Origin: Spirochaetae bacterium HGW-Spirochaetae-1
GTDB lineage: Bacteria > Spirochaetota > UBA4802 > UBA5550
DNA: 64,000 nucleotides
NCBI GenBank assembly: GCA_002839375.1
Contig: PGXY01000003.1
Coordinates: 219,863-283,862 of the forward strand
Direction: 5' to 3'
The notes beneath the pieces were generated by a model. The model was not told the origin of the DNA and ran no database searches. It saw nothing but the letters and a program-made list of their open reading frames with translations. Positions 30,258-35,661 of this stretch are shown in pieces (the stretch's first letter is position 1; every line of letters begins with the position of its first letter). The translations under genes were made by a program, and so were the position numbers.

Positions 30258-31307
30258 TCACAACAATGTCTTATACCTCTCCAGGGCATCCAGGACTGTC
30301 TTGGACGATGCAATAACAGGGTCCACGCCGATCCGCATAAGCCTGACCCGCAGGTATTCCATCTCAATTTTCCGAAACGGGCAGCACAGATCCTCGAGGA
30401 AAACCACGGTCTCAACGGCATAATTTCTCAGCAGTTTGTACAGAAGCTCAAAACGCTCTTCCTTTATACGCAGGGAAGGACATAAAGGCTTGTACGTATA
30501 GGCATCGAGTATTTCATAATAGATATAATCGGAAAGGGGATTTACCGATATATCAAACTGCCGCCGCCCGTTGCAGTGGTCATCCTCTGCAACAAGGAAC
30601 CCCGACTCCTCCATGTCATCGAGCAGTGCCCCGTCGTTAATGGGTCCGGCATAGACCATAACCGGGGTCATCGCAGGATCATGACCCTCGCCGTACGCAT
30701 TACAGGCATCCCGTACAGCCGAGAGGTGCCCAAGTATCACCGATGGGGGAAATATAACGGCTGCCTCGAAAAGGACAAGGAGATCCCGGTTCGACAGAAT
30801 TCGGGGCACCTCCCTGCGCTTCGCCGCTATGCTCCTCATTATACGCCGCAAATTGTCATACTCACCGGCCACGGCCTGAAGTTTATCAACGTCGAGATCT
30901 TTAATGCATGCACCGACTGTTTTCTGAAGAATATCATCCATGACGGAATGAATGGCCACACCCGCTTCCTCGCCGAAACCACCGGGAAAAGTGAAAGGTA
31001 TAACGGGAATGGCAGCGATCCCGTGCTCCTCCAGACCCGTGTTCCGGGGCACAAGAAGGGCATCATAACAGCCGGGAATGGAAGACTCAAGTACCCTGCT
31101 CCGACAGGCACCCCGTGCTCCGGCATGTACCGGTGGAGTGCCTATATACAGATTGAATGATGCGGCAATTTCCACTGGCAGGGCGTCAACGGGACTACAG
31201 GCGAGAAAGGCGCCGGTCTCCTCACGAAACCTGTTCAGAATCATACTGTATTGGTCAATCATTTCCCTTACGGGATCGACGAGATAGGCAAGTTCTGAAA
31301 TTTTCAT
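30258..31307 (-). CDS. 2-hydroxyacyl-CoA dehydratase D-component family protein
   Basis: The 349-residue protein resembles HgdB/FldC-type dehydratase or benzoyl-CoA reductase subunits: a Cys near the start followed by PVDALPVEIAASF (Cys37), a central helical region with LLVLFEAAVIFPP, GPINDGALLDDMEESGFLVAEDDHCNGRRQFD, and EDLCCPFRK near the C-terminus. Such subunits bind a 4Fe-4S cluster and need an ATP-driven activator. Neither a partner subunit nor an activator gene is adjacent. It is transcribed in the direction of the mla genes but separated by 340 bp of repeat-rich DNA. It may be a solitary member of unknown substrate. Confidence 0.75.
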   Translation of the reverse strand: MKISELAYLVDPVREMIDQYSMILNRFREETGAFLACSPVDALPVEIAASFNLYIGTPPVHAGARGACRSRVLESSIPGCYDALLVPRNTGLEEHGIAAIPVIPFTFPGGFGEEAGVAIHSVMDDILQKTVGACIKDLDVDKLQAVAGEYDNLRRIMRSIAAKRREVPRILSNRDLLVLFEAAVIFPPSVILGHLSAVRDACNAYGEGHDPAMTPVMVYAGPINDGALLDDMEESGFLVAEDDHCNGRRQFDISVNPLSDYIYYEILDAYTYKPLCPSLRIKEERFELLYKLLRNYAVETVVFLEDLCCPFRKIEMEYLRVRLMRIGVDPVIASSKTVLDALERYKTLL

Positions 31308-31647: not shown

Positions 31648-32337
31648 CTAATCTTTCCCATCCTTGAATAGGAACTTGACCGGATGTTTCTTCAGCTCGA
31701 CGGAAATCTCATTCATGGTCTGGGCCGTGGCGCGGAACGATCGCAGAATTTCCAGAATATCCTTCTGCGAGTCTTCCAGGAGGCGGTTCACATTGGCCAC
31801 ACTGTTTGAAAGATTGGTGGTAAGACTCCGGATATTACTGCGGCTCTCGAGCACAATCATGTTGACACTCCCTATCGTGGTGGAGAGTTTGCTGAGTACC
31901 TCGTGAACATCCTGCATGATGGCATTGAGACCGGAAAATTCCAGGCCCTCTATACAGTCCTTGTCCAGGAGTCGCGGTCCACGGATCTCGGGGTTACGGA
32001 TATCGATGGCGGGATCACCCAGGACGTTCTGGTTCTGGATTATGGCTGAACAGTCTTCGTAGAGCTCGATATCGCTATTGATCCTCATGGTGGCCAGGAA
32101 ATGAAGCGTCGGTTTGTATACGGGCTGAATATCCACGACTTTCCCGATGGTGTAGCCCTTTATCATGACAGGGGTCCCGTTCTTCACCGATGTGAGACTA
32201 TCTACCTTGAGAAAAACATCGATGGTTGAACTGGCAACACTGTAACCCAGTTTGAGCATGATAATGATAAAGAGAATGGCCGTGGGAACCAGAATGAAAA
32301 GTCCGACACGGAGTTCGTTTCTGTTTTTTGACGCCAT
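31648..32337 (-). CDS. mlaD: MCE/MlaD-family lipid-transport protein
   Basis: The 229-residue protein has one N-terminal membrane helix (LFILVPTAILFIIIMLKLGY, about residues 13-33), then the MCE domain (about 38-115) with VFLKVDSLTSVKNGTPVMIKGYTIGKVVDI. The C-terminal half is helical and coiled. MlaD-type proteins form a hexameric ring in the periplasm that binds phospholipids and docks on the MlaE permease. The gene is third in the set mlaE-mlaF-mlaD. No mlaB or mlaC is present, as in many non-proteobacterial systems. Gaps of 29 and 87 bp suggest one transcript. Confidence 0.87.
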   Translation of the reverse strand: MASKNRNELRVGLFILVPTAILFIIIMLKLGYSVASSTIDVFLKVDSLTSVKNGTPVMIKGYTIGKVVDIQPVYKPTLHFLATMRINSDIELYEDCSAIIQNQNVLGDPAIDIRNPEIRGPRLLDKDCIEGLEFSGLNAIMQDVHEVLSKLSTTIGSVNMIVLESRSNIRSLTTNLSNSVANVNRLLEDSQKDILEILRSFRATAQTMNEISVELKKHPVKFLFKDGKD

Positions 32338-32366: not shown

Positions 32367-33134
32367 TTATAATAAGACCATGGGGCCCACGGTCGTTTTC
32401 AGCTTATACTGGTGGATATAGGGATTGTTCGTATTGATGAATTCGTCCCTGGATCCGCTGAACACGTTCCTGCCGCCGAACAACATAATGAACGTATCGG
32501 CAATATCAATATATTTTTCCGGCTCATAGGTTATAAAAATATGGGCCTTATTTTCAAGCTGCGCCCTTTTTTTCAACTCCTCCCAGAATGAATTGATATT
32601 GAGAGGAGACTGGCTTTCGAAAGCATGCTCAACAAGGAGTATATCGGGATTAAGTGCTATAGCCCTTCCGTATGCCGTCTTCAGTATTTCCGACCTGGTA
32701 AGATTTACCGGCCGAAACTTTTTACACGATTCAAGGTTCAGATCTCCTATAATCATGTCCACATATTTCTTTATCTCCACGCTGCTCATCTGCGAGTGGT
32801 ACTGCAGGGGCAGAGAAATGTTCTCTTCTACGTTCATGTTGCTGATGAGCCCGTAATCACGGTGTATATATCCGATCCCCTTTTTAAAATTATGACGCTC
32901 CACATAATCAAAGTCTTTGACCGACTTTCCCTTGAAGAGCACCTCGCCGTCAAAGTCCTCAATGAATCCCATGATCAGGGAAAAAATAACATCGAGTCCC
33001 GAATTTTCCGGCCCAAAGAGGACTATATTCTCGCCATATTCAAGTGAAAAGGTGAGATTATGAATATTGTTCATTTCCTCACCGATATAGCTGAGGTTAT
33101 TGACCGAAAGAAGTGTTCCGTTCATCGCATGCAC
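32367..33134 (-). CDS. MlaF-like ABC protein lacking all ATP-binding motifs
   Basis: The 255-residue protein aligns over its whole length with ABC ATPases of the MlaF type, but the active site is gone. Walker A reads GPENSGLDV (residues 41-49), with the Lys replaced by Leu47 and the following Ser/Thr by Asp48. The Q-loop Gln is Arg92 (YIHRD). The LSGGQ signature is LTRSE (145-149). Walker B is ILLVEHA, so the Mg-binding Asp is Val168 while Glu169 remains. The switch His is replaced in ITYEPE (201-206). The frame is intact and sits between mlaE and mlaD. It may be a structural pseudo-ATPase, or the complex may use an ATPase encoded elsewhere. Confidence 0.85.
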   Translation of the reverse strand: MHAMNGTLLSVNNLSYIGEEMNNIHNLTFSLEYGENIVLFGPENSGLDVIFSLIMGFIEDFDGEVLFKGKSVKDFDYVERHNFKKGIGYIHRDYGLISNMNVEENISLPLQYHSQMSSVEIKKYVDMIIGDLNLESCKKFRPVNLTRSEILKTAYGRAIALNPDILLVEHAFESQSPLNINSFWEELKKRAQLENKAHIFITYEPEKYIDIADTFIMLFGGRNVFSGSRDEFINTNNPYIHQYKLKTTVGPMVLL

Positions 33135-33221: not shown

Positions 33222-34016
33222 CTACAGATAAAAGAGTATGGATACAACTGTGTTTATAATTAAAATAGTAAAAAGCGTCCTGATAACTGCACGGGAAACA
33301 AATATCGGTATTTCAAACTTGGAACGCGGTTTGAATCCATAAAAGCAGCAGATGAGTGGTATTATTATACCGAATATTATACTCTTCAGGACCATGGCCA
33401 GGACATCCTTGAGACTGAAGGCGTTGAGCAGCGCCTGAAAAAATACATCGACGGGGATATAGACCGTTATCTGGGAGATACCATAACCGCCCACGAACGC
33501 GATGAGATCAAATATCACAATGAGAGAAAAAATAGAAAGGGTCGAAGCCATGATACGCGGGAACACGATATAAAGCTTCGTGTCGATCCCCATGATTTCC
33601 ATGGACAGGATCTCCCCGTTCTGTTTCTGCGTGGCTATTTCAGCGGTTATTGCCGAACCGGACCTGCTTATGACGATGAGGGCAGTAATCAGGGGGCCAA
33701 GCTCACGGGCGATAATTATTACCATGAGGTTGCCCAGGAAGCCTTCGATACCGAACTTGGGAAGAGATGTCATGGCCTGTATGATAACAGTTCCACCGAT
33801 GAGCAGGGCAATGAGAACGACAAAGGGAAGAGCATCGATACCGGTAAAGCGCGTCTGGTTGATGATGATGCTGTAGATGGAGCGAAACCTGAGATACCGC
33901 ATTGAATGGAAGGACATGGCAATAGACCTGATATAGGTGTAGAATCCGCTGATGCCGCTCCATATATTCAATACCCGGCTTCCAGCCATTACCGCTATGT
34001 TTTCTATGCTCTTCAT
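33222..34016 (-). CDS. mlaE: MlaE-family ABC permease
   Basis: The 264-residue membrane protein has the MlaE fold: about five to six hydrophobic segments with the conserved ARELGPLITALIVISRSGSAITAEI block (about residues 113-137) and EIMGIDTKLYIVFPRIMA. MlaE dimers form the inner-membrane core of lipid transporters, with MCE protein on top and an ABC ATPase below. The ATP-binding partner encoded next (32367-33134) has lost its catalytic residues. The EIxxMGID region that contacts the ATPase is preserved here. It starts at ATG 34016 and is the first gene of the set. The plus-strand DUF4015 gene is divergent, with 193 bp between. Confidence 0.9.
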   Translation of the reverse strand: MKSIENIAVMAGSRVLNIWSGISGFYTYIRSIAMSFHSMRYLRFRSIYSIIINQTRFTGIDALPFVVLIALLIGGTVIIQAMTSLPKFGIEGFLGNLMVIIIARELGPLITALIVISRSGSAITAEIATQKQNGEILSMEIMGIDTKLYIVFPRIMASTLSIFSLIVIFDLIAFVGGYGISQITVYIPVDVFFQALLNAFSLKDVLAMVLKSIIFGIIIPLICCFYGFKPRSKFEIPIFVSRAVIRTLFTILIINTVVSILFYL

Positions 34017-34209: not shown

Positions 34210-35661
34210 ATGACACAGCATACAAAAAATCTTATCCTCACAACCCTGATTTTCATCTTTGCCGTATTCCTCATCAGCAGCAATTATTATCGAATCATAT
34301 ATGTGAATGATATCATCCGCGGCTTTCTTCTCTCCATGGCCGACAGGGCCTTCGCCCGGCAATCATACCATACAGGTCAGATAGAAACACCCCTTGTAAA
34401 TACCTATGCCGTTCTTCCAGCGGGATTCACCCATTGTGGTCCTTTCCTTATATACAATAATAACGCGGAGACATCCCTGAATGAAGTGGCGGAAAAAATT
34501 ATTTCCTTCACCTCCTTTTACCGGAATCATCGGCTTAAAAACGCCATCCAGTCCATTAACGGTATCAATGGAATAGCCATAAAAGGCGGGAAACCGGTGA
34601 TCATTCCCGGTGCCCTGCCGCCCTTCATGACGGAATTGAGAAATATCCGTAAACCGCCCATCCTGGAGGCAAAGGCTCTTTATTTCACGGGACTTACCGC
34701 CGGTGATGAAAATACCCTGGCCCTGTTTCCCCGGTTTCATACAATAGGGCTGAATGCCGTAGTTTTCGATGTGAAGGATATCCCCGGCACAGTAAGCTAT
34801 AAAAGCAGGGTCCCCCTGGCGATAAAAATAAACGCCCATGACAAAAATCCCATAGATAATATCGAACTTTTCATCCGCCGCATGAAGGAACAGAACATCT
34901 ATGTCATCGCGCGCATCGCGGTTTTTCATGACCAGCTGATTGTCAAAAAGGCTCCTTCTCTGGCAATACGCTCGCGTCGCACCGGCGGCATCTGGAATAA
35001 GGGAGCAAAAGAGATGTGGTGCGACCCCACCAGCAAGGCGGTCCAGGACTACAATATCGAGCTGGCCTGTGAGATCGCCGACAAGGGAGCCGATGAAATA
35101 CAGTTTGATTATATTCGGTTCCCCACTGTGGGCGACCTGAAGGATGCAGACTACGCCTATGACTTCGGTACGATGTCTAAAGACCAGGCCATCACATATT
35201 TCCTGAAACGTGCCCGGGAGCGTCTGCAGGAAAAAAATGTCCGTCTTTCCATTGATATATTCGGCGTTGTAGCCTGGGGCAAAGAAGTGGATATTATCCG
35301 GACCGGCCAGAGGATCGAACTCCTGTCCCGGTACTGCGACTATATCTCACCCATGCTTTACCCGTCTCATTTCAACGATGAGTTCGACGGCTACGGCAAT
35401 CCCGCCGATCACCCCTACTACTTCATATTCAATGGCAACAAAAAAGTAATGGCCCGGCTCTCCGGCAATAATGTAATAGTAAGACCCTGGCTTCAGGCAT
35501 TTAAATGGAAAGTGAGCTCCTATTCACCGGAATACATCATAGAACAGATCAAGGCCTCGAACGACTCGGGCGGCCGGGGTTATCTCTTCTGGAACGCCTC
35601 CAACGATTACAAGAATGTATATAAAGCCATGGCTTTGCTGCATTCAGGCGCAGGCAAATAA
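34210..35661 (+). CDS. DUF4015 putative glycoside hydrolase
   Basis: The 483-residue protein has an N-terminal membrane anchor or uncleaved signal (LILTTLIFIFAVFLISSNYY) and a C-terminal TIM-barrel domain of the DUF4015 putative glycoside hydrolase type (about residues 155-475). Recognisable blocks are GLNAVVFDVKD, YVIARIAVFHDQLIV, WCDPTSKAVQDYNIELA, GADEIQFDYIRFPT and RLSIDIFGVVAW. The acidic residues in FDVKD, FDYIRFP and SIDIFG are likely catalytic by analogy with GH folds. It should act on a periplasmic or surface glycan. The substrate is unknown. It is a single plus-strand gene after a divergent promoter region. Confidence 0.82.
   Translation: MTQHTKNLILTTLIFIFAVFLISSNYYRIIYVNDIIRGFLLSMADRAFARQSYHTGQIETPLVNTYAVLPAGFTHCGPFLIYNNNAETSLNEVAEKIISFTSFYRNHRLKNAIQSINGINGIAIKGGKPVIIPGALPPFMTELRNIRKPPILEAKALYFTGLTAGDENTLALFPRFHTIGLNAVVFDVKDIPGTVSYKSRVPLAIKINAHDKNPIDNIELFIRRMKEQNIYVIARIAVFHDQLIVKKAPSLAIRSRRTGGIWNKGAKEMWCDPTSKAVQDYNIELACEIADKGADEIQFDYIRFPTVGDLKDADYAYDFGTMSKDQAITYFLKRARERLQEKNVRLSIDIFGVVAWGKEVDIIRTGQRIELLSRYCDYISPMLYPSHFNDEFDGYGNPADHPYYFIFNGNKKVMARLSGNNVIVRPWLQAFKWKVSSYSPEYIIEQIKASNDSGGRGYLFWNASNDYKNVYKAMALLHSGAGK

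Follow-up and report, generated by a model that had tools for sequence, protein, structure and literature searches.

The window analysed here, a stretch of 64,000 nucleotides from the genome of Spirochaetae bacterium HGW-Spirochaetae-1 (source genome, G000), contains an intact frame of 255 codons that runs on the minus strand from position 33134 down to 32367 and is flanked on the same strand by the genes mlaE and mlaD, each of which is intact and full-length. The frame encodes the nucleotide-binding subunit of an Mla-type ATP-binding cassette (ABC) transporter in which the residues of the ATP site are replaced, and it is referred to as pseudo-mlaF. Translation could start at GTG, but an ATG in the same frame three codons downstream, at 33125, is the likelier start. 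The coordinates and Pfam matches in Table 1 agree with the first-pass annotation of this DNA, which had described an intact full-length frame between intact mlaE and mlaD, with the correction that the genes lie on the minus strand.

Pseudo-MlaF matches the Pfam profile PF00005 (ABC_tran) with 45.3 bits (cut-off 25; E-value 1.8e-11), and MlaE matches PF02405 with 189.8 bits. Structures of the single chains were modelled with AlphaFold 2 (AF2). The pseudo-MlaF model has a predicted local distance difference test value (pLDDT) of 93 and a predicted template modelling score (pTM) of 0.89, and its best match in the PDB is MlaF (6xbd_I) with a template modelling score (TM) of 0.90; the best PDB matches of the MlaE model (pLDDT 82) are MlaE structures, with a TM of ~0.8. 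The model indicates that the ABC fold is kept in pseudo-MlaF. The nearest solved structure and the operon context (MlaF/MlaE/MlaD) point to MlaF; its score against the NCBIfam MlaF equivalog model NF008809 is 72.8 bits, below the cut-off of 441.

Table 1. Genes of the locus and positions of the former ATP site and the coupling helix in the window
Feature	Position	Strand	Basis
Pseudo-MlaF (255 aa), nucleotide-binding ABC subunit lacking the ATP-site residues	32367..33134	-	Pfam ABC_tran, AF2, orthologues
Partner permease MlaE, 264 aa, intact	33222..34016	-	Pfam MlaE 6.1e-56; AF2 model
Partner MCE protein MlaD, 229 aa, intact	31648..32337	-	Pfam MlaD 4.6e-12; adjacency
Former Walker A, G41-P-E43-N-S-G46-L47-D48 (canonical GxxGxGK[S/T])	32991..33014	-	Alignments, codons
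Q-loop position, Arg92 (canonical Gln)	32859..32861	-	Alignments, codons
Former signature, L145-T-R-S148-E149 (canonical LSGGQ/M)	32688..32702	-	Alignments, codons
Former Walker B Asp / catalytic Glu, now Glu169-His170	32625..32630	-	Alignments, codons
Former D-loop Asp, now Ser176 (Cys in most relatives)	32607..32609	-	Alignment, codons
Former switch His, now Tyr203	32526..32528	-	Alignments, codons
Coupling helix of MlaE (GEILSMEI, residues 134-141), flanked by two long membrane helices	33594..33617	-	Alignment, AF2 model

Loss and refixation of the ATP-site residues

The residues of pseudo-MlaF were assigned by alignment with solved MlaF (7d06/6z5u) and with 33 canonical MlaF-type ATPases of spirochaetes, and the codons were read from the DNA. 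In the former Walker A motif, Lys47 is replaced with Leu and Ser/Thr48 with Asp, leaving the P-loop glycines G41 and G46, and the SGGM/Q of the signature has become Thr146-Arg147-Ser148-Glu149. With L47, R92, LTRSE, E169-H170, S176 and Y203, the protein does not have the motifs of a catalytically competent ABC ATPase, and as judged from these residues it is not one. In Escherichia coli MlaF, the mutations K47A and E170Q, which lie at the sites of Leu47 and His170 here, each abolish function (PMC7367683). The alignment and codons confirm what the first-pass annotation had read at Walker A (Leu47 and Asp48), the Q-loop (Arg92), the signature (LTRSE) and the lost switch His. Its assignment of the Walker B Asp to Val168 was one residue early: Val168 aligns one position ahead of the Asp; the Asp itself is replaced with Glu169, and the catalytic Glu with His170.

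The survey covered 46 genomes of the window's class (one order, 7 families) and 393 genomes of the phylum. A pattern scan with the single protein gave only remote ABC ATPases; the orthologues came from a genome search, in which nearly all genomes of the window's order had one at 42–57% identity, and then from a profile search, in which a pseudo-MlaF orthologue was found in 42 of the 46 class genomes, across 7 families. A 43rd class genome above the threshold (G029) was left out because its match is a canonical ATPase. The phylum-wide survey adds 13 genomes with a relative that scores 240 bits or more, all in families f22 and f38, which form the Turneriella group. The pseudo set thus scores at least 240 bits, and the next matches, which are canonical ATPases, reach at most 163 bits. 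In a tree built from 36 pseudo-MlaF and 19 canonical MlaF-type sequences, the pseudo set lies on one side of a branch with a support of 100 in the Shimodaira–Hasegawa-like approximate likelihood-ratio test (SH-aLRT), and it divides by taxonomy into the window's class and the Turneriella group. The tree indicates that the pseudo-MlaF family is one old clade, and since the losses are common to the whole clade, they are not due to chance.

The aligned columns were counted over 42 class rows, 13 Turneriella-group rows and 33 canonical rows, where Lys47 is present in 0, 12 and 33 rows, respectively. The second Gly of the signature and the D-loop Asp are each present in 0, 0 and 33 rows, the former now being Ser in 51/55 and the latter Cys or Ser. 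The switch His is found in 2, 0 and 32 rows and is now Tyr in 49/55. The catalytic Glu, present in 32/33 canonical rows, is found in 0/42 class rows and is gone in most of the 13 Turneriella-group rows. None of the 55 aligned orthologues has a complete ATP site. In the P-loop, Glu43 is fixed (55/55) and absent from the canonical set, and His170 is fixed within the class. The class positions 44, 47, 48, 92, 146 and 147, which correspond to phosphate contacts, are as variable as ordinary columns; the positions 43, 148, 149, 169, 170 and 203 rank with the better conserved columns and carry new residues that are fixed or nearly fixed. This distribution indicates neither drift at every site nor retention, but a release of the nucleotide contacts and a refixation of other positions. 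In the most economical history, the signature, D-loop and switch residues would have been lost before the two groups split, and the Walker A Lys later, in the window's class. The Walker A motif of the 12 Turneriella-group proteins that keep Lys is GPExSGK; in the remaining one (L167, G179:C173) the Lys was lost independently, giving GPEGCGM.

The ratio of nonsynonymous to synonymous substitution rates (dN/dS, Nei-Gojobori method) of pseudo-mlaF is 0.03–0.22 in the close pairs with finite dS, which is of a similar order to the mlaE and mlaD values of those pairs, though mostly somewhat higher. The first-pass annotation had proposed selection for a non-hydrolysing subunit, had suggested checking whether the substitutions are conserved in a clade, and had named canonical motifs in relatives together with relaxed selection as the mark of a decaying gene. 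The alignment of relatives supports such selection and gives the opposite of that mark: with no complete site in 55 orthologues, the low dN/dS and one old clade, the pseudo-ATPase is very probably conserved by selection.

Individual copies deviate in two draft genomes. The pseudo-mlaF of one of these (L088, G009:C245) lacks ~35 residues over the former switch region through a deletion that keeps the frame; a frameshift had been suspected there and was rejected. The other draft genome has two copies (G045:C242 and G045:C254), and contamination is likely because one of them resembles members of family f1.

The partner permease MlaE

In solved complexes, the coupling helix of MlaE docks MlaF (PMC7790496, PMC8241846). 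Residue 134 of the window's MlaE is the position of a lost Glu, where ATEQ of E. coli corresponds to QNGE; in the AF2 model of this MlaE, the helix spans residues 135-141. Of 40 canonical MlaE proteins, 39 carry this Glu at the start of the coupling helix, against none of the 43 class partners and 13 Turneriella-group partners of pseudo-MlaF. The residue that replaces it in these 56 partners is Arg in 35, Lys in 11, Gly in 3, Asn in 3, His in 2, Gln in 1 and Ser in 1. Position 111 of pseudo-MlaF was compared with the coupling helix for a charge swap that would match the change of Glu to Arg/Lys, but it is mixed (R, E, K, Q, D), and no clean swap was found.

The partner MlaE proteins form one clade with a support of 100. 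A partner-type MlaE is present in 42/42 class genomes with pseudo-MlaF and in 0/4 without it (G012, G021, G029 and G030), for which a naive Fisher test gives 6e-6; since G021 and G030 share a genus, the absences correspond to about three independent losses rather than four. These counts indicate that the MlaE coupling helix changed in the same lineages as the pseudo-subunit, that is, together with it, and pseudo-MlaF is likely to dock on this MlaE.

Pseudo-mlaF is adjoined by mlaD in 24 of 25 longer loci, and the partner mlaE of the Turneriella group is encoded away from pseudo-mlaF and mlaD. The set is kept even where the operon is broken, since genome G004 has pseudo-mlaF apart from mlaE and mlaD, which stay together elsewhere in the genome (loci L085, G004:C55, and L128, G004:C112). 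Another MlaE of the Turneriella-group genome G179 (L189) has Asn at the position of the coupling-helix Glu.

Proposed ATP-independent complex and its alternatives

In ABC proteins each ATP site is composite, formed by Walker A of one subunit and the signature of its partner. Because pseudo-MlaF has lost both, established ABC architecture implies that no complete ATP site would arise in a homodimer, nor in a heterodimer that pairs it with a normal MlaF. Given the lack of a complete site and the intact fold, pseudo-MlaF would serve as a structural pseudo-ATPase and keep MlaE in a complex that works without ATP. The structural pseudo-ATPase is the best supported of the three options that the first-pass annotation had offered (a passive transporter, an ATPase encoded elsewhere or a structural pseudo-ATPase). 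The products of mlaE, pseudo-mlaF and mlaD probably form an MCE-type lipid transporter in which a selected pseudo-ATPase is part of an ATP-independent conduit or exchange complex.

In such a complex, pseudo-MlaF would still dimerise and sit beneath MlaE, where a fixed or ligand-gated structural clamp would replace the ATP-driven open/close cycle and the former nucleotide interface would be rebuilt from the new Glu43, Ser148-Glu149, His170 and Tyr203. Such an assembly would pass or exchange lipids between the inner membrane and MlaD down the lipid gradient, alongside the cell's canonical ATP-driven Mla system. The transport part of this proposal draws on the E. coli-type system, in which phospholipid transfer from MlaD to MlaC is spontaneous and ATP-independent and ATP hydrolysis suppresses the transfer (PMC10212509). 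That the complex is a passive conduit, rather than a regulator or scaffold, is a tentative choice that falls a little short of even. More doubtful still is the broader proposal that an entire class of ABC-type MCE transporters gave up ATP in spirochaetes, where MlaE and a homodimeric pseudo-MlaF would have co-evolved into an unpowered, gradient-driven conduit, with a living ATP-binding, non-hydrolysing intermediate in Turneriella.

The direction of Mla transport (inward or outward) and the role of ATP have been disputed, and the ATP-independent MlaD-to-MlaC transfer seen in vitro has been contrasted with genetic data (PMC10212509). Several points weigh against the conduit. Since K47A and E170Q MlaF are non-functional in E. 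coli (PMC7367683), the loss of ATP is not an easy step for an ordinary Mla system. The source genome has no match to PF05494 or PF04333, i.e., no MlaC or MlaA and hence no complete MlaABCDEF pathway, and MlaD is short, so that no acceptor is seen for a passive flux. In addition, most pairs show a somewhat higher rate of evolution in pseudo-MlaF than in MlaE and MlaD, canonical MlaF-type ATPases of the same genome could in principle replace pseudo-MlaF, and the support for lipid conduction by this MlaE and MlaD is indirect.

The Turneriella-group form, in which Lys is kept, may bind ATP without hydrolysis as a switch, and the window's class would then be the end point of this path. The group has lost the signature, D-loop Asp, switch His and mostly the catalytic Glu, which fits such a switch, and G179 lost the Lys independently; however, this explanation is silent on the present function in the window's class, where all 42 rows are without Lys, and as an account of the system it is unlikely.

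Alternatively, a canonical MlaF-type ATPase encoded elsewhere may power this MlaE, as a heterodimer with pseudo-MlaF or by displacing it, leaving pseudo-MlaF as a regulator or placeholder. A search baited with an approximate generic MlaF sequence found such ATPases in the source genome, as the first-pass annotation had suggested looking for: one in a canonical mlaE-mlaF-mlaD operon on contig C6 and two without an adjoining mlaE, at C3:671953 and C6:212424. The separate placement of mlaE in the Turneriella group would also suit this explanation. However, a heterodimer would lack both composite sites, the coupling helix of this MlaE has co-changed and is without the Glu that partners of canonical MlaF keep, and one orphan MlaF could be accounted for by an orphan canonical MlaE on contig C11, which also needs an ATPase. 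The ATPases proposed in the first-pass annotation are thus present, but their role here is weakened, and we regard it as rather unlikely. The orphan mlaE (G000:C11:38632-39267; L043, L095:5612-6463) has a dnaB/rplI-like gene cluster next to it; the 15 kb of sequence read there contain neither mlaF nor mlaD, and a similarly high-scoring copy is found in most class genomes.

It is somewhat less probable again that pseudo-MlaF acts as a sensor for a ligand or as a regulatory lock, where a rebuilt pocket of Glu43, His170 and Tyr203 would bind a metal, a lipid head group or a second messenger in place of ATP and gate MlaE. The new residues at the former catalytic positions are indeed fixed and not drifting, but they may merely stabilise the dimer interface, and pseudo-MlaF has no extra domain and no known ligand. 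Finally, the gene might be decaying, or the product of a lineage accident or of an error in the assembly. The four class genomes without pseudo-MlaF and the deletion in G009 might speak for this, but it is rejected as highly improbable in view of the presence of pseudo-mlaF in 42/46 genomes with the full frame kept order-wide, a dN/dS well below 1, shared motif losses, fixed derived residues and a co-evolved partner.

Relation to known transporters and neighbouring genes

The transporter itself is of the known Mla/MCE kind; no description of a variant with such a pseudo-MlaF was found in the literature searched (open-licence papers only). MlaFEDB of E. coli, Acinetobacter baumannii and Pseudomonas aeruginosa shares with it the subunit types E, F and D, the folds of MlaF and MlaE and the docking site at the coupling helix. 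It differs in that here the ATP site is dismantled, the coupling-helix Glu is lost, no MlaB adjoins and the genome has no MlaC or MlaA. The C-terminal QY...GPM of pseudo-MlaF corresponds to QF...GP of MlaF, which has a C-terminal handshake extension of ~25 aa; pseudo-MlaF ends 3 residues after GPM, as do most canonical MlaF copies of this spirochaete group. The minimal MlaEFD of Veillonella parvula is also a three-gene set without MlaA, MlaB and MlaC (PMC10665443), whereas here MlaF is ATP-dead and MlaD has 229 aa. Heterodimeric ABC proteins with one degenerate site (TM287/288, TmrAB, TAP, CFTR and Pdr5) show a similar natural loss of catalytic residues (reviewed in PMC7756269); they keep one complete site with an active partner, whereas the only nucleotide-binding subunit of the present operon has lost both half-sites.

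PqiABC and YebST/LetAB represent MCE lipid transport without an ABC ATPase and without MlaE or MlaF. They share the absence of an ABC motor with the present system, which, in contrast, retains MlaE and MlaF and has lost no more than the motor function. A natural Mla-type system without an ATP site that is still under selection allows one to ask what MlaE and MlaD do without a motor. It would also be an example of an ABC operon with a pseudo-enzyme as its sole nucleotide-binding subunit, and related bacteria would supply graded forms of the site (canonical, Lys-only and none).

The source genome also encodes an extra MCE protein at C4:521039. In the window, the gene at 30258-31307 on the minus strand encodes a remote double-cubane/benzoyl-CoA-reductase-like protein, and the gene at 34210-35661 on the plus strand encodes a protein of 483 aa without an NCBIfam match; each recurs beside the operon in several relatives.
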